Source: a virus. Taken from it: 26,427 bases of DNA. The notes beneath the pieces are model-generated. The model was not told where the DNA came from, searched no databases, and saw only the letters and a list, made by a program, of their open reading frames with translations. The DNA lies in the IMG/VR virus record IMGVR_UViG_3300035666_000965, positions 1 to 26,427 of that record. One strand, 5' to 3'. Shown here one piece after another: positions 1 to 12,272 of the stretch. Every line of letters starts with the position of its first letter. The first letter of the stretch is position 1. Both the position numbers and the translations under genes were made by a program.

Positions 1-521
1 TAGTCCTTATTTAATATATCTAGATTAGATACCGGTTTATATGGCAGCAGATAACTAGGAGTATCTCTCTCCTTTGTTCCTTGTGCTAGTACTATATTGT
101 CAGCAGTAATAATGGCGCCCTGCTTTAAATGTACTTGACCATCTCTTATATCAAGCACATCATCATACAAGAATTGAACTCCTTCTTGCTGCAACTTTTG
201 TTTTACCCAACACAGATAGCCAAACATCTGAGATCTCTTTATGCGGCGTGGATCTGTTTCTATAGCTAATTGATCCGTGGTAAACATGTCCTCTGTGTAC
301 AAATAATTGCTTAGAGAATAATGTCTATTATTAGCACTATACGTTACTAGATCAAAGGAGACTGGGCTGCGCAATTCAAAGTCTGCTACGGTAGAAGTAG
401 CAGACCATGTAGCGCCAGGTTTAGAGTCTACTATGTATATTTGATCAATATAGGGCAGCGCCTCAATAGCTACTGCTAATCCTCTAGGCCCTCCTCCAAC
501 AATTATAATGCTACGCAACAT
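1..521 (-). CDS. FAD/NAD(P)-binding oxidoreductase, partial (3' end beyond window)
   Basis: The reverse strand has an open frame from an ATG at 519-521 to the window edge, giving 173 residues with no stop. The N-terminus starts with a hydrophobic beta strand and the dinucleotide-binding motif GGGPRGLA (residues 9-16, fitting GxGxxG), followed by a second strand ending in an acidic residue (YIVDS, D32), as in FAD-binding Rossmann folds. A second strand-plus-glycine motif, IVLAQGT (143-149), resembles the ATG motif of two-dinucleotide-binding flavoproteins. The segment RRIKRSQMFGYLCWV recalls N-hydroxylating monooxygenases and related FAD-NAD(P)-binding proteins, but the substrate cannot be told. 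Its start overlaps the 3' end of the fibre gene by 11 bases, so it belongs to the same transcript and may be translationally coupled. No clear Shine-Dalgarno is seen. The fold is inferred with good confidence; the reaction is unknown. Such an enzyme is unusual directly behind a fibre gene. Confidence 0.82.
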   Translation of the reverse strand, partial: MLRSIIIVGGGPRGLAVAIEALPYIDQIYIVDSKPGATWSATSTVADFELRSPVSFDLVTYSANNRHYSLSNYLYTEDMFTTDQLAIETDPRRIKRSQMFGYLCWVKQKLQQEGVQFLYDDVLDIRDGQVHLKQGAIITADNIVLAQGTKERDTPSYLLPYKPVSNLDILNKD

Positions 522-2127
522 AAGGCTTAAACCATAAAGTAGTGCTGTTTAATGCTATGCCTGCTACTAATAATCCTGCAGTAGTAGTGATGCTTGTATT
601 GCTGTTATTTATGTAGTACAGAGAGCCTGGAACTAAACTAGTAAAGGCGTTTACTAGACTATTATTTGTATATAAATTACCATCAACATAAATAGCAAAG
701 AAGTTAAGTAAAGGTTGATTATGGCTGACTGTAATAGGAGCCCACGTATTTGCTTGCACTGGAATAAATACCTGTCCATTTACTGGTATTACTTGACCAA
801 AGCCTTGTGCTGTTAAGAATCTAGGTACAAGGTTATTAGGAGTGCCAGGTACATAGTCAGTTCCTCTATAGACTAAAGTAGACTCTTGATCAGGAACTTG
901 TGAGTCAATCGTAATAGGTATTCCATTTAATCTATTGGCATTCCAAAAGTTAGCGTCGTTTAAGATAGTTAAGGTTAGATTGTTAGTGTTATTTTGAATA
1001 GTTGCTACGTTAGTATTTGCTACGTTAATTACTTTTAGAGTAGTAACGTTATTAGCTTGAGAAGCTATAAGACTATTAGTAGTACCCGTAGAAGCAATTA
1101 CTGTACTGCTATTGCCTCTAATAAGTACCTCAGTATCATTAGATTCAACCGTAATACCATCTAATCCTCTAAGTGTTCTAAGCTCGTACTTGTCCGTAAC
1201 AGCATTAAAAGATTTGTATATTGGGCGGCCTGCTCCTATATTGCTAAGCTGATTAGTTGAAGTAGAAGCAATAGTAAGACTTGTTTCACTGTCTGTAATA
1301 GTTACGCCACTACCCGCACTAATTCTCTTAATTTGACCTAAGCCATTATATAAAGTACTGCCTACATCATTAGCGTTAGTTAGTCCAACTCCATTGCCTG
1401 TACCTACCGCACTAATAGTTATCTCAGAAGCAGAGTCTGATATAAGAATGTTGGTACCCGCCTTAATACTCTTAAAACGTAAAGTAGAAGCTACATTGTT
1501 AACGTATATGCGCCCAGTACCTACCCCTACGTTTTGACCAACTACAGTATTAATTCCGGCACTAGCATTAATTACTATTTGATTGCTGTTAGTCGTGTCT
1601 AAGGTAATATTGTTACCTGCTACTAGAGACTTAAAGCGTAAGTCTGCTCCTACTTTCTCCTTGTATATAGCAATACCCGTGCCTACACTAGAAGCAGTAT
1701 TAGCTTCTCCAGGTGCAGTATTAGATATGGTTATAGTGTTTACATCAGAGGAGATGCCAATATTAGTGCCTGCAACTATGGTCTTTAAGTTGTAAGTACC
1801 TCCACTGTAGTTTTTGTATAGAGATGCACCAGACCCCACATTAGTAATAGTTAAAGGATTGGGTATTGTGCTGGATATTAACAGCGTTCTGTATACACCA
1901 CTATCAGTAGTACTTACATTAATATTATTACCTGCTACAACATTTATAGCGCCGTAAGTTCCGTCTAATACTCCATTTAAATAGAGCTTAGTACGAGGTG
2001 GTACATTTGCTAGAAGCGTAGTAAAAGAGACTGCCTTAGTCTCATTGTTGTTAGTGTCCTCTACAGGGAAATAAGTAGTGCCGCTTAATGAGGTAAGTAT
2101 TGGTAGATCTGTTATGTTTGTCTGCAT
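511..2127 (-). CDS. Repeat-containing tail fibre protein
   Basis: This 538-residue protein is rich in Asn, Thr, Ser, Val and Ile and looks like a trimeric beta-structured fibre. A short N-terminal segment (1-47) probably anchors it to the baseplate. Residues 48-338 hold about six degenerate repeats of 48-54 residues, each centred on a motif of the type AGxNIxI (near residues 65, 119, 170, 223, 271 and 321) and usually preceded by an IYK or LYK box and a LRFKS-like strand. The C-terminus (about 440-538) has the pattern common at the ends of phage fibres, with a YYINNSNTSITT turn and a final strand LWFKPYVA. It follows the baseplate genes, as expected for a receptor-contact protein, and its last 11 bases overlap the oxidoreductase start. 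No Shine-Dalgarno sequence stands before the ATG. The role in host binding is inferred from composition and position. Confidence 0.8.
   Translation of the reverse strand: MQTNITDLPILTSLSGTTYFPVEDTNNNETKAVSFTTLLANVPPRTKLYLNGVLDGTYGAINVVAGNNINVSTTDSGVYRTLLISSTIPNPLTITNVGSGASLYKNYSGGTYNLKTIVAGTNIGISSDVNTITISNTAPGEANTASSVGTGIAIYKEKVGADLRFKSLVAGNNITLDTTNSNQIVINASAGINTVVGQNVGVGTGRIYVNNVASTLRFKSIKAGTNILISDSASEITISAVGTGNGVGLTNANDVGSTLYNGLGQIKRISAGSGVTITDSETSLTIASTSTNQLSNIGAGRPIYKSFNAVTDKYELRTLRGLDGITVESNDTEVLIRGNSSTVIASTGTTNSLIASQANNVTTLKVINVANTNVATIQNNTNNLTLTILNDANFWNANRLNGIPITIDSQVPDQESTLVYRGTDYVPGTPNNLVPRFLTAQGFGQVIPVNGQVFIPVQANTWAPITVSHNQPLLNFFAIYVDGNLYTNNSLVNAFTSLVPGSLYYINNSNTSITTTAGLLVAGIALNSTTLWFKPYVA
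1114..1986 (-). repeat. About six tandem protein repeats in the fibre gene
   Basis: Codons 48-338 encode about six imperfect repeats. The core AGxNI motifs recur at spacings of 54, 51, 53, 48 and about 50 residues. Conservation is at protein level (boxes IYK, LRFKS, AGxNI and a short ITIS-type strand) rather than at DNA level. The units probably stack as a triple-stranded beta shaft, so the copy number would set the fibre length. Confidence 0.7.
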
Positions 2128-2194: not shown

Positions 2195-4276
2195 CTACTG
2201 AAGTAGTTCTTTCTTTACAACAAGAGCTAAGGCACATTGCCCATCAGTTCTAAGTATTAACTGACCATTTACGTCTACCTGGCATCTATAGTCTTCTAAT
2301 TTAACTATGTCAAAACAGATGTCAAAATCATTGTACAAAGGCATTTCTATGCCGCTAACTACATTTACAGGAATACCAACAACTTCAATAGTCTTTAGCT
2401 GCTGTTTAATGTAGTCATCTATATAGCCTAAGATCTCAATATCTACTGTGTTGCTGTAGGCTCCAGACCAGTAAGTAGATCTAATCTCTTGGCTGTCTAC
2501 AGACAAAGCAGTAGTTAAAAGCTCCTTTCTGTTTAATAGATAGTTACTGTTAAATAACTGCGTATGTGTTGTCTTGGTACTAATAATGTCTTTCTGTCTT
2601 CTAGCGTGTACGTACAAGTCTATAAGAGGCTTAGTAAATCCTCGTATTACAAGATCCTGTATAGGAGTCTCTTCACTTAGCCACGTATAGTTAACTGGAA
2701 TAGTTGCTTTAAAGGTAGTGAATACCTGTTGTTCATACATTTCTAAACATTCATAGAATGTATGCGTAAGCCTAGAAGAAGAGATAGGTATGCTCTGTAC
2801 ATCTACAATAAGACTATTAGTGCGCAGGTAACTAGGCAATACTACATTAATAAGCCTAAACAATAGAAGCTCCTGCGTACTTAGTTCTGTATCCGCATTT
2901 ATATAATAAGGTGTTGTAAAGGATAAGTAGTTAAATAGCTGACCTAAATACTTTTTAGTGTCAACATCTATGTTATATACGTACTTAGTAAATAGGTCCC
3001 CATATACAGTAGATTCTGTAGTTACTACAGGATTGTTAAGGCTTTCAAGAAATACACCGTCATGATAAAAACAGTACTTTATGTATTTGATTAGTGTTGT
3101 AGCAAGAGATAAGTACGTAACATCATTAGTATTTACATATAGCTCCGTATACGCAATTAACTTAATAAAGCTGTTCTTTAGACTTCTAGTAGTAATAGCG
3201 TTAATCGTATCTATTACTGCGTTTACTTCTTGCTTAGCAAGTATAAGAGCTAAGAAGGATAACAACTGAATAGTTATGTCAGGTAATTCTTCTGTTGTGT
3301 AGTTAGTCGTGCCTAATACATTAGGAGAAGTTACTAAGTTGCTTATCCAGTTGCTCTTATCGTCCACAAGCTGCGTATATTCAATAGGAGCTGTAGCCGT
3401 CTTAACATAGCTATGACGTATGGTATTGTATGCCGCTATATCATTTATAGTTAGTAGCAGTATGTCTGCTAATCTATTTCTATCCTTATACAGTACTAAC
3501 TGCTGCGGCAAAGATATATCTACATCCGTAAGCAGAAGATAAATAATAGACCATAAAATATTCTCCGTATCATAAAGACGTACTGTCCAAGGAATGTTTG
3601 TCTCCCAGTTACTTCTTAGGTATAAAGGGCGCTCAACAAATCTATACGTACTAACTATCTCTACTAAATTAAACTTAGTAATAGTAATAACTGCAGAAAA
3701 GCTTTCTGGTAAGTCAAGATCTACAGTAACTGTATTGTCTATTAAACCCTGCTCTTTACTAATAAAGATCTCTTCTCCTGTCTCTATATGTATTGCGGAG
3801 ACTTGATACAGATAAGAGTAGCCATAATCATCTGCATTAGCCTGTATAAAGTAGTAAGGTATATCATCTATTAGATAATACACATTACTGCTAATAGCAG
3901 TAGTCCATGCTCCGTATTTATCCATACACTCATTATTAATACAGTCATCAGTTATTACTGACGGTTGAGGATTTAGACGCAGATTATTAAGAGTAATAGT
4001 TAATACGTTATTACTTCTATTAAACGTAGGATATATAAGCTTCTGCGGCGTATTTACATACTCATACTTCTTATCATCATTTTCTATAATCTGATCGCAG
4101 ATAGGAATACAGCTATCCTCTATACAGTCGGTAGATAGACCAAGCTTAGTCTGTACAAGAGAGACTTTACTAGTAGTATTGCCAGACTTATACGCATTCC
4201 ACCATATATTATTACCTCCCTGATCTAGGTAAGTTAATACCTTGTTAAAAGCGTAGGAATTATCTTGACTTAACAC
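2195..4276 (-). CDS. Large baseplate-associated protein of unknown fold (GTG start)
   Basis: The 693-residue product is not recognised by motif. It lies directly after the baseplate J-like gene and before the fibre, a position usually held by baseplate wedge or fibre-attachment proteins (the region of T4 gp6 to gp10 or of P2 gpI), so a wedge or fibre-connector role is inferred. The N-terminal part carries two similar Cys motifs of the form C-I-x3-C, at residues 51-56 (with another Cys at 60) and 112-117. The middle (about 250-600) appears mainly helical and the C-terminus returns to beta strands. The start is GTG at 4274-4276, 17 bases inside the upstream gene, with GAGG at 4286-4289 nine bases before it, which supports this start. 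No alternative function is suggested by the sequence. Confidence 0.75.
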   Translation of the reverse strand: MLSQDNSYAFNKVLTYLDQGGNNIWWNAYKSGNTTSKVSLVQTKLGLSTDCIEDSCIPICDQIIENDDKKYEYVNTPQKLIYPTFNRSNNVLTITLNNLRLNPQPSVITDDCINNECMDKYGAWTTAISSNVYYLIDDIPYYFIQANADDYGYSYLYQVSAIHIETGEEIFISKEQGLIDNTVTVDLDLPESFSAVITITKFNLVEIVSTYRFVERPLYLRSNWETNIPWTVRLYDTENILWSIIYLLLTDVDISLPQQLVLYKDRNRLADILLLTINDIAAYNTIRHSYVKTATAPIEYTQLVDDKSNWISNLVTSPNVLGTTNYTTEELPDITIQLLSFLALILAKQEVNAVIDTINAITTRSLKNSFIKLIAYTELYVNTNDVTYLSLATTLIKYIKYCFYHDGVFLESLNNPVVTTESTVYGDLFTKYVYNIDVDTKKYLGQLFNYLSFTTPYYINADTELSTQELLLFRLINVVLPSYLRTNSLIVDVQSIPISSSRLTHTFYECLEMYEQQVFTTFKATIPVNYTWLSEETPIQDLVIRGFTKPLIDLYVHARRQKDIISTKTTHTQLFNSNYLLNRKELLTTALSVDSQEIRSTYWSGAYSNTVDIEILGYIDDYIKQQLKTIEVVGIPVNVVSGIEMPLYNDFDICFDIVKLEDYRCQVDVNGQLILRTDGQCALALVVKKELLQ

Positions 4277-5318
4277 TAACTACTACCTCGCTAGGAATTA
4301 ATAGATACTCATTAATTATTGGAGTAATAGTAGTTGCAGGCTTATTAACGCTTACCGTATACCCCGTCTTACTAGTAACATAACTAGTAAGCTGTCCTAC
4401 TACTACACTATCTCCTACAGTTAAATAAGAGAAGTATTCTTCAACTGCCGCTTTTATATTGTCTACAACAGTAGATACAGAGTCACTAGTGATTCCAGTT
4501 AAATACGCGGTTAGATCTAAATCTACTGGTTGATACTGTAAAGACTTAACTATAAATAGTACTCCTACTGCTTTAATGTTATTGACAGTGCTAATTACTT
4601 TGTCTATGACTAACTGATTAGCAGTGTCTATGTATATAGTAGTGTATCCAGGAGCAGGCCTTCTTTCTACTATATGAATAGTATTTACATAACTCTGTAG
4701 TTGACTAATAATAGCGTCTTTATTAACTAGGCCCTTATTAAATATAAACGTATTAAGTCTTGTTCTTAATGCATCGTCTGATTCAGATGAAGAGCCACCT
4801 ATCAGATTTCCTACTAGCTGTTTTGTATTGTCTCTATAACTCCCAACAACAGCAGAAACATCACTGTTAATAAAATAGAGAGGAGTACCTGCTACTAAGT
4901 TAGCGTTGCTAGACTGAGTTATAGATGTAACGGGCACTAATGCTTCTCTATCCGCACTTACTACTACTTCCTTTGTAGTCTCTAAAGTAATAGTGCCAGT
5001 TACGTTTTGTAGTTGAGCTCCTACTAATAACTTAGTAGTATTAGTTGCTTTAGCTAATACAGTACCAAAAGAGCTAGTACCTGGTCTTCTTGATAGTCCG
5101 TAGGTATTAGCAAGCACATCTAGATCATTGCCCTGACTACTAGATACTAGACCCGCATTAACAATACCGGTAATCTCCTGTTCTTGTGCGTAACAGGTAG
5201 CCGCCATTCCTCTAATAAGAGTATAGAGGACTCCATAACTAGAGGCTGCCTTTTCAAGGCTAGTATTGTTAAATTGCTGTCTTATATCTTCAACTATTTG
5301 CTCAAATGTTCTAGACAT
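4260..5318 (-). CDS. Baseplate J-like wedge protein
   Basis: At 352 residues this matches the usual size of the Baseplate_J family (Mu gp47, P2 gpJ, related to T4 gp6), which forms the wedge ring that triggers sheath contraction. Family-like features are the N-terminal helical segment (SRTFEQIVEDIRQQ), the region SSQGNDLDVLANTYGLSRRPGT at about residues 58-80 in which a long helix leads into the first beta domain, and a mid-protein GSSSESDDALRTRL segment at about 173-187, corresponding to the family pattern EsdeelR.R. The gene overlaps the gp25-like gene by 8 bases upstream and the 693-residue gene by 17 bases downstream, the classical W-J-I order of P2-like baseplates. An AGGAG lies ten bases before the ATG, slightly farther than ideal. 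Confidence 0.88.
   Translation of the reverse strand: MSRTFEQIVEDIRQQFNNTSLEKAASSYGVLYTLIRGMAATCYAQEQEITGIVNAGLVSSSQGNDLDVLANTYGLSRRPGTSSFGTVLAKATNTTKLLVGAQLQNVTGTITLETTKEVVVSADREALVPVTSITQSSNANLVAGTPLYFINSDVSAVVGSYRDNTKQLVGNLIGGSSSESDDALRTRLNTFIFNKGLVNKDAIISQLQSYVNTIHIVERRPAPGYTTIYIDTANQLVIDKVISTVNNIKAVGVLFIVKSLQYQPVDLDLTAYLTGITSDSVSTVVDNIKAAVEEYFSYLTVGDSVVVGQLTSYVTSKTGYTVSVNKPATTITPIINEYLLIPSEVVVSVKSR
4286..4289 (-). promoter_or_regulatory. Ribosome binding site deciding a GTG start
   Basis: On the minus strand GAGG lies nine bases before the GTG at 4274-4276. It supports translation of the 693-residue gene from GTG inside the end of the baseplate J-like gene. Confidence 0.55.
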
Positions 5319-5673
5319 TAATTAATATCTCCTGTGTTTGATTGTTTGCATAGGTAATGATATAAGTGACTTGATTAAGTGAATCCACAACTGTCTGTAT
5401 CTCTTTTACTACTACATCTACAAACTTAAGCGCATTATCTACGTCAGAGTTCATATCAGCTAATAAAGAAGAATTAACGTTCTCACCAATCTTAGTATAT
5501 ATGCTGTTACCGTAAGCCTGATCTACGTACTTGTTAGCATCGTACTCCCACGTTAAATAGCCCAGAGGAGTTATTACTGCTCTTCTAACAAGGTTGTTAG
5601 GAGTGTCTTCAATTACTAAGTCTTCCGTAGTAGCATCAATAATGAGATCTTTGTCTGCCGCAATATCATACAT
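5311..5673 (-). CDS. gp25-like baseplate wedge protein
   Basis: The product has 120 residues, typical for the gp25/gpW family of sheath-proximal wedge components that nucleate sheath polymerisation. Recognisable features are an acidic N-terminal strand region (DKDLIIDATTEDLVIED), then a segment RRAVITPLGYLTWEYDANKY at about residues 30-49 in the place of the family's rL.T.pGe.....dfG signature, followed by helices with a conserved-looking acidic pattern and a C-terminal strand pair. Its place immediately before the baseplate J-like gene, with an 8-base overlap, is the standard arrangement. No Shine-Dalgarno is evident before the ATG. Confidence 0.8.
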   Translation of the reverse strand: MYDIAADKDLIIDATTEDLVIEDTPNNLVRRAVITPLGYLTWEYDANKYVDQAYGNSIYTKIGENVNSSLLADMNSDVDNALKFVDVVVKEIQTVVDSLNQVTYIITYANNQTQEILINV

Positions 5674-10707: not shown

Positions 10708-11856
10708 TTATCTAAATCTCAAACACTGTTCAGGATCAATAAAGTCTCCATTAATCTTTATTTCAAAGTGCAAATGAGGGCCCGTACTATATCCCGTATT
10801 GCCCATATCTCCAATACGCTGACCTACTACTACCTGTTGGCCTACTGAGCAGAATATAGCTTCTAGATGATTATAGGTAGTAAGAATACCTTCTGGACTA
10901 GTTATTACCACTCTATTACCATAGCCTCCATCATTCCAACCCGCCTCATTGACTACTCCATTACTACTAGCAAATATGGGAGTTCCTACATTATTAGCTA
11001 TGTCTACACCATTATGCATACGCTCATTTCTCCAACCAAAGCCACTAGTAAACGTTCCTTGAGTAGGCAGTCTTAAACTAGAACACATAGCAAATCCCTG
11101 TGCCAGCATTGCAAACTTGGCACCTTTAGCTACTAAGGTACTGTTAGCTACTCCTGCTCCATTAGTACTACTTCCTGTCACTGGTCTAACTATGTTAGAT
11201 ATTTTGCAACCTGGATTAGTTATCTGATAATTAGCTCTATACAGATCAACCGCACTAATAGCGGCACAGGTAATATCTGCCTGTAATGCTAGATCTAAAT
11301 CCAATGCAGTAGCAGGAGCAGTACGTAATCCTTGACCTAGTCCACTAAGAGCACTAAGAGAGACGGCAGGTCCTTCAGGTAAAGGAACGCCCTTTAGTGA
11401 GTCAACTAACTTACAAAAGCTTTCTGCGGTATACTTACTGCCCTGATTCTTATATCTAAAACCAGAAGAACTATTAGGCATTGCTGCCCACTCCAGAGAA
11501 TTACTATCTAACGTTGCTAGACAGTTACCTGCTATAACGTCATTTAGTGTACCTCTAAGAGTATCCATTCTATATAAAGCAGCAATATCCTGATCTCTAG
11601 GATTGCGTATATCTAAAGGACCTAAGCCTTGCTGTATCTCTTTCCATGTACTTGGCATAAACTGATAACGACCAAACGCAGCACTAGTTCCTCCTTGAAA
11701 AATAGTATTAGGATGAGCAGCGCTTGTAGGCACATGCACGTAGCCCCCATTAGCCGTATAGTAAGTGGGAGCCTCTATCTGACTAATTGCATTTAAATAG
11801 GCAACAACATTAGTATTACTTAATAACTGTAAATAGTAATTCTTGTCTTTAGCCAT
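10708..11856 (-). CDS. Tail-associated bifunctional lysozyme and M23 endopeptidase
   Basis: The 382-residue enzyme carries two peptidoglycan-cutting domains. Residues about 12-155 resemble lambda-type phage muramidases or transglycosylases (COG4678-like): ISQIEA with the likely catalytic Glu28, an NGGY loop, and FGRYQFMPSTW at 61-71. A linker (about 156-260) follows. Residues about 265-378 form a lysostaphin-like M23 metallopeptidase with zinc ligands H281 and D285 (in MHNGVDIA) and H363 (in HLHFE), plus the catalytic His residues H330 and H361, so the site looks intact. Known family chemistry is cleavage of the glycan strand and of peptide cross-bridges. Between the spike/amidase genes and baseplate genes, it most likely acts at the tail tip during DNA entry; no holin is nearby and no signal peptide is seen. 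A partial GAG element precedes the ATG. Confidence 0.9.
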   Translation of the reverse strand: MAKDKNYYLQLLSNTNVVAYLNAISQIEAPTYYTANGGYVHVPTSAAHPNTIFQGGTSAAFGRYQFMPSTWKEIQQGLGPLDIRNPRDQDIAALYRMDTLRGTLNDVIAGNCLATLDSNSLEWAAMPNSSSGFRYKNQGSKYTAESFCKLVDSLKGVPLPEGPAVSLSALSGLGQGLRTAPATALDLDLALQADITCAAISAVDLYRANYQITNPGCKISNIVRPVTGSSTNGAGVANSTLVAKGAKFAMLAQGFAMCSSLRLPTQGTFTSGFGWRNERMHNGVDIANNVGTPIFASSNGVVNEAGWNDGGYGNRVVITSPEGILTTYNHLEAIFCSVGQQVVVGQRIGDMGNTGYSTGPHLHFEIKINGDFIDPEQCLRFR

Positions 11857-11858
11857 AA

Positions 11859-12272
11859 CTACTCTAATCCTGTATATATAGTTTTGTTGGGTAGGAACTT
11901 GTTATATGCTCTAAATAACTCAACTCTGTCTAGCTTCTTTAAATCACTAGAACTAGATAGATCTGCGTGCGTATAAACCTTATCCAGGGCTATATCTAAT
12001 TGAGATAACAGATATGCAAGCGTCATGTATTGAGCAGAATTAAGGGATCCATCAATAGACTCTAGGCATATTTGATAGGAGCTGGCATCTACATTAGATA
12101 TACCTTTTAATTCGCAGTTACCACAGGCTACCGCAGCTCTATTAGCAGGAACTAAGTATGTAAGAGCGCCATTGGTACTAATGAATGCGTGATAGCTATA
12201 GCTAGCAGTCTGTATAGTACTGAGAAATACGTCAGAGCTTTCTTCTGTCTGATGTAATACAACAATAAACAT
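11859..12272 (-). CDS. N-acetylmuramoyl-L-alanine amidase (Amidase_2-like)
   Basis: The 137-residue protein matches the compact Amidase_2/PGRP fold, which cuts the bond between MurNAc and L-alanine using zinc. The likely ligands are H7 in the first strand (VVLHQTEES), H102 (YTHADL) and D115 (KKLDR), in the order seen in AmpD-like enzymes, with K112/K113 at the place of the conserved Lys. The strand YHAFISTNGALTYLVP (27-42) corresponds to the usual HY.i..dG.iyqlv region and CLESID (69-74) to the siGIElv strand. It is slightly shorter than typical, with no cell-wall-binding domain. It follows the OB-fold gene directly, without any gap, and precedes the lysozyme/M23 gene by two bases, so a virion-associated role in envelope penetration is more likely than final host lysis. 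That last point is inference. Confidence 0.83.
   Translation of the reverse strand: MFIVVLHQTEESSDVFLSTIQTASYSYHAFISTNGALTYLVPANRAAVACGNCELKGISNVDASSYQICLESIDGSLNSAQYMTLAYLLSQLDIALDKVYTHADLSSSSDLKKLDRVELFRAYNKFLPNKTIYTGLE

Follow-up and report, generated by a model that had tools for sequence, protein, structure and literature searches.

A flavoenzyme of predicted N-hydroxylating monooxygenase fold at a fixed place in the baseplate module of a group of cyanophages

The window analysed here is a whole viral contig of 26,427 bases, and the flavoenzyme gene with which it begins is therefore cut at its edge: only the 5′ part (1..521, minus strand) is present, encoding 173 of 351 codons before truncation by the contig end. 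The open reading frame itself (3..521, minus strand) has an ATG start and is open to the end of the contig. Upstream of it on the same strand lies a repetitive tail-fibre-like protein of 538 amino acids (511..2127), which occurs there in some lineages only and has no match in Pfam or PHROG. This is preceded by a homologue of baseplate wedge 3 (BW3; 2195..4276, minus strand), whose family profile also finds SscM-1 gp118 and SPO1 gp15.1, and by a Baseplate J-like wedge protein in the BW2 position (4260..5318, minus strand; Pfam PF04865, 1.7e-13; PHROG 6). A small conserved baseplate protein (5311..5673, minus strand) occupies a gp25-like position and is identified by that position only, its profile match to SPO1 14.1 being weak (E 0.03). 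The tail operon also carries two adjacent peptidoglycan hydrolases (10708-12272, minus strand), one of 382 aa, made up of two parts with peptidase M23 at the end, the other an Amidase_2 protein of 137 aa. At locus L122, also from the window's virus, a protein of 880+ aa with a DNA/RNA non-specific endonuclease domain (L122:2-2641, minus strand; PF01223, 5.6e-24) is encoded further downstream within the structural operon, which puts a nuclease among or close to the virion genes, and the large terminase subunit of 920 aa (L122:3466-6225, minus strand) likely contains an intein with a LAGLIDADG-like domain.

The sequence-only reading had recognised a flavoprotein-like frame that starts 11 bases inside the fibre gene, and closer analysis upholds both points. 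The frame is genuine, with GGGPRGLA at residues 9-16, VDS at 31-33 and IVLAQGT at 143-149, and it overlaps the fibre stop region by 11 bases (511..521, minus strand), an arrangement likely to reflect translational coupling. Even the 173-codon fragment alone matches Lys_Orn_oxgnase (3e-8) and Pyr_redox_2 (4e-6) in Pfam, which excludes a chance frame. Beyond the window there is neither a stop nor a frameshift to undo the reading: the contig IMGVR_UViG_3300010354_000218, which is 99.8% identical to the window across 8.5 kb, carries the frame on to a complete protein of 351 aa with a stop codon. The complete gene lies at L002:5001-6056. The second dinucleotide-binding (Rossmann) motif that the same reading proposed to look for is present in the full-length protein as GSGQGA (residues 181-186).

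What kind of protein is this? The best Pfam match of the full-length sequence is Lys_Orn_oxgnase (4.5e-11, residues 5-199), a match found in all 15 aligned members, while no NCBIfam model reached its cut-off. Over residues 6-351 the protein matches the full-length profile of PHROG 29209, a family of unknown function (9.1e-39). A 15-member profile run against PDB sequences places solved N-hydroxylating monooxygenases (NMOs) at the top, namely DfoA (1.4e-13), SsDesB (1.8e-13) and putrescine N-hydroxylase (3.4e-12), followed by MbtG, KtzI, SidA and PvdA, with all of these matches confined to the N-terminal 200 positions. The AlphaFold2 model (pLDDT 88, pTM 0.88) extends the likeness over the whole chain, where Foldseek aligns it to NMOs in the PDB with TMq 0.68-0.75, as against 0.48-0.55 and an rmsd of ~12 for disulphide reductases. 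Among predicted viral structures, the only close match is the MaMV-DC homologue. The FAD/NAD(P) fold first suspected from the fragment is thus borne out by the predicted structure of the full-length protein, and so is the suggested relation to siderophore and amine N-hydroxylases. The flavoenzyme is accordingly modelled as an NMO fold with two dinucleotide-binding domains; its motifs and model indicate that it should bind FAD and NADPH and that it is kin to bacterial amine-hydroxylating enzymes.

The sequence family itself is already known and labelled. PHROG 29209 includes gp106 of Microcystis phage Ma-LMM01 (Fukuivirus), annotated as a "putative lysine/ornithine N-monooxygenase", and WOL31317 of Microcoleus phage My-WqHQDG is another orthologue of this type. 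Both are 30-35% identical to the window enzyme over their full length, with the same motifs and the same position before BW3TFN and DUF4815. The window's virus nonetheless belongs to a separate clade, ~53% identical within itself, which differs from Ma-LMM01 and My-WqHQDG in having a fibre gene of its own directly upstream of the enzyme.

Residue conservation was scored over 24 diverse members, which are only ~30% identical to one another. In the FAD motif, G9, G11, P12, R13 and D32 are invariant in 24/24 and position 14 is G in nearly all; in the NADPH motif GxGQ(S/G)A, G181, G183 and Q184 are likewise invariant throughout. The invariant or near-invariant set as a whole comprises GxGPR, Asp32, RSPxxFDL, GxGQ, YPxPxYxxW, WxPSIT and DGPR. 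No conserved Cys column occurs among the 24 members, nor does the redox-active Cys pair by which thioredoxin or disulphide reductases are recognised. Both cofactor sites have thus been kept. A disulphide-reductase role can be excluded, and the thioredoxin/disulphide-reductase annotation that the Microcoleus phage protein carries was rejected on the missing Cys and the lower TM-scores.

With class B NMOs (DfoA, SsDesB, putrescine N-hydroxylase, KtzI, PvdA and SidA), the phage enzyme shares the fold, the FAD and NADPH motifs and, in its N-terminal half, the W and P-x-x-x-DLV signatures. It differs from them in being ~80 aa shorter, in its diverged C-terminal substrate region and in its phage-only distribution. 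The Lys in SFLKDLV of PvdA binds the carboxylate of the substrate ornithine; the phage family has Phe at this position in every member (Phe56, in SFDL), and diamine-type NMOs have Ala. The "lysine/ornithine" part of the Ma-LMM01 label is therefore unsupported. Mapping of the substrate-binding Asn by profile alignment is unreliable past about residue 200, as the C-terminal half is too diverged, and for the same reason NMO-type catalysis is best called putative.

Could the fold have been retained purely for structure? The protein might conceivably serve as a virion adaptor joining BW3 to the network of BW3TFN and fibre, with a structural flavin and with catalysis lost or irrelevant. Its shortened length, its own C-terminal motifs (YPxPxYxxW and WxPSIT) and the fixation of its gene among structural genes would all suit such an exaptation. 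A pure scaffold, however, should have lost the NADPH motif somewhere, and at ~30% identity both cofactor motifs remain invariant, so that we regard this as a rather unlikely, if serious, explanation. The kept FAD and NADPH sites instead argue for catalysis.

The place of the gene is as constant as its motifs. In all 29 contigs found through the enzyme (22 viral contigs first found and 7 further loci), a BW3TFN-type protein and then a DUF4815 tail protein follow directly, and the same order holds in the three isolate genomes inspected, Ma-LMM01, MaMV-DC and Microcoleus phage My-WqHQDG. The redox enzyme that had seemed an unexpected oddity in a tail operon is, on this survey of related genomes, the rule in these phages. 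PF25691 matches the BW3TFN-type protein in eight representatives other than the window's virus, and seven of these matches exceed the cut-off. In phage A511, BW3TFN joins receptor-binding proteins to the baseplate (PMC10811340). In 21 of the 24 members the enzyme's frame overlaps that of BW3TFN, while upstream of the enzyme lies BW3, with or without an intervening fibre gene and, in several lineages, directly adjacent. The coupling to a tail-fibre gene that was first proposed thus stands as regards the overlap and the tail operon, but it is clade-specific, and the constant partner is BW3TFN downstream. In several loci (L014, L025, L066, L068, L076 and others), a second, shorter DUF4815-like paralogue of ~750-980 aa follows DUF4815 in tandem, with profile E-values of 1e-9 to 1e-92.

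Loci gathered through the enzyme would naturally contain it, and as an ascertainment check 36 loci were therefore collected from DUF4815 while ignoring the enzyme. It was at its usual place in 23 of these and absent from 11 with a short, Herelleviridae-type DUF4815 as well as from L077; the one remaining locus, L079, is cut before the enzyme site. In L077 (3967-9915), BW3TFN adjoins Baseplate J: BW3, the fibre and the flavoenzyme are all missing from their place, and neither BW3 nor the enzyme was found anywhere in the 67-kb record. Such a module shows that the enzyme is not indispensable everywhere. Homologues of Baseplate J, BW3, BW3TFN and DUF4815 also occur in Herelleviridae (SPO1, Twort-like phages and A511) in an order shared with the cyanophages, but in the Herelleviridae genomes examined BW3 and BW3TFN have no enzyme gene between them. 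The homologous enzyme-free order is seen in SPO1 14.2-16.2 and in vB_SscM-1 gp117-gp120, and the BW3 profile matches Herelleviridae proteins at 2e-12 and 3e-13. The cyanophage module runs BW2, BW3, an optional fibre gene, flavoenzyme, BW3TFN and DUF4815, a Herelleviridae-like order, and modules with and without the enzyme, set side by side, mark it as either gained by or lost from a baseplate plan common to both.

Within that plan the enzyme has evolved in step with its neighbours. In Ma-LMM01-type genomes, the enzyme has a dN/dS of 0.18, close to those of BW3TFN (0.19) and DUF4815 (0.17), which places the flavoenzyme gene under purifying selection, and the distance matrices of enzyme and DUF4815 are closely correlated (Mantel r 0.95, 24 taxa). 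Synteny and co-divergence of this kind are evidence, at the level of sequence, of shared vertical inheritance and not of physical contact.

Outside phages the enzyme is hardly to be found. Across 386 cyanobacterial genomes there were only partial matches to the full-length protein, save for one phage-like contig of Elainella saxicola with the same tail module, and this contig was also the sole match in a pattern scan of ~85,000 species genomes, which used short conserved peptides and may miss diverged relatives. That contig has DUF4815 broken into two overlapping frames of 858 and 614 aa (L028:9682-14072), through a frameshift, a sequencing error or the decay of a prophage. A plasmid search gave one weak partial match only. 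A recent gain from the host is unsupported, given that these scans found no full-length cellular homologue beyond the phage-like contig. As to the hosts themselves, nblA exceeded the cut-off in three related contigs, which supports cyanobacterial hosts for those three, while psbA was found in none of the relatives. The window clade has neither marker, and a cyanobacterial host is inferred for it from relatedness only.

This distribution bears on whether the gene is auxiliary to host metabolism: its product would N-hydroxylate one of the host's free diamines or amino acids in a siderophore or polyamine pathway, and its location in the late operon would serve only its expression. The Ma-LMM01 annotation would favour such a role, as would the fact that the closest solved relatives N-hydroxylate diamines or lysine/ornithine in siderophore pathways. 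The enzyme was never found outside the tail module, however; no host orthologue turned up in the 386 cyanobacterial genomes; no partner siderophore gene was seen adjoining it; and its divergence tracks that of baseplate genes. We consider this role improbable. Of the earlier suggestion of a hydroxylation step in host metabolism, the kinship to amine hydroxylases survives, but the constant synteny and the missing cellular or non-tail context make the metabolic setting less credible. Rather than being a borrowed metabolic gene, the gene probably encodes a participant in tail construction or a virion component: its constant position, close coupling and co-divergence, together with the lack of any other context, argue for a function in the tail module.

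What might that function be? A dedicated oxygenase of NMO fold, acting at the junction of BW3, BW3TFN and fibre during assembly or carried there, is the reading that we favour, at roughly even chances. The enzyme would be made late, in step with BW3TFN, and would bind FAD and NADPH inside the infected cell, where it could oxygenate a substrate at this junction during tail assembly. The likeliest substrate would be an amine, for instance the side chain of a lysine or a small bound amine, and it is possible that the enzyme modifies the fibre or a ligand. It may also stay on as a stoichiometric virion component; free virions should lack NADPH, so any activity would be confined to the cell. A different use of the same chemistry would be as a redox switch or oxidant source, whereby NADPH oxidation yields peroxide and thus disulphide or other cross-links that lock the baseplate. 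The tail of phage Milano is indeed locked by disulphides, whose reduction is required for contraction (PMC10811340), and the partner proteins have Cys columns, one in BW3TFN and two in DUF4815, that are occupied in 15-16 of the 24 sequences. The partner Cys are not invariant, however, and the enzyme has no conserved Cys of its own, which makes such a switch very improbable.

In the open-access literature searched, there is no description of the enzyme's fixed baseplate position, phage-only range or full-length fold, and nothing came to light there on gp106, on virion proteomes of these phages or on an enzyme assay. We know of no flavin monooxygenase that forms part of a contractile tail. The nearest likeness is to the dihydrofolate reductase and thymidylate synthase of T4, which have been reported, though contested, in the T4 baseplate. 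They resemble the present case as redox or metabolic enzymes serving as baseplate components, but their fold is unrelated and their genes lie outside the tail operon.

The fixed, co-diverging position speaks against counting the gene as an auxiliary metabolic gene on the strength of its "lysine/ornithine N-monooxygenase" label, and it ties the cyanophages that carry it to the baseplate plan of Herelleviridae. We suggest, tentatively, that these phages have an NADPH-dependent flavin oxygenase of their own, fixed across the cyanophage group, which either is contained in the tail or completes it chemically. If true, this would mean that an enzymatic oxidation step is built into the assembly of the baseplate and fibre network.
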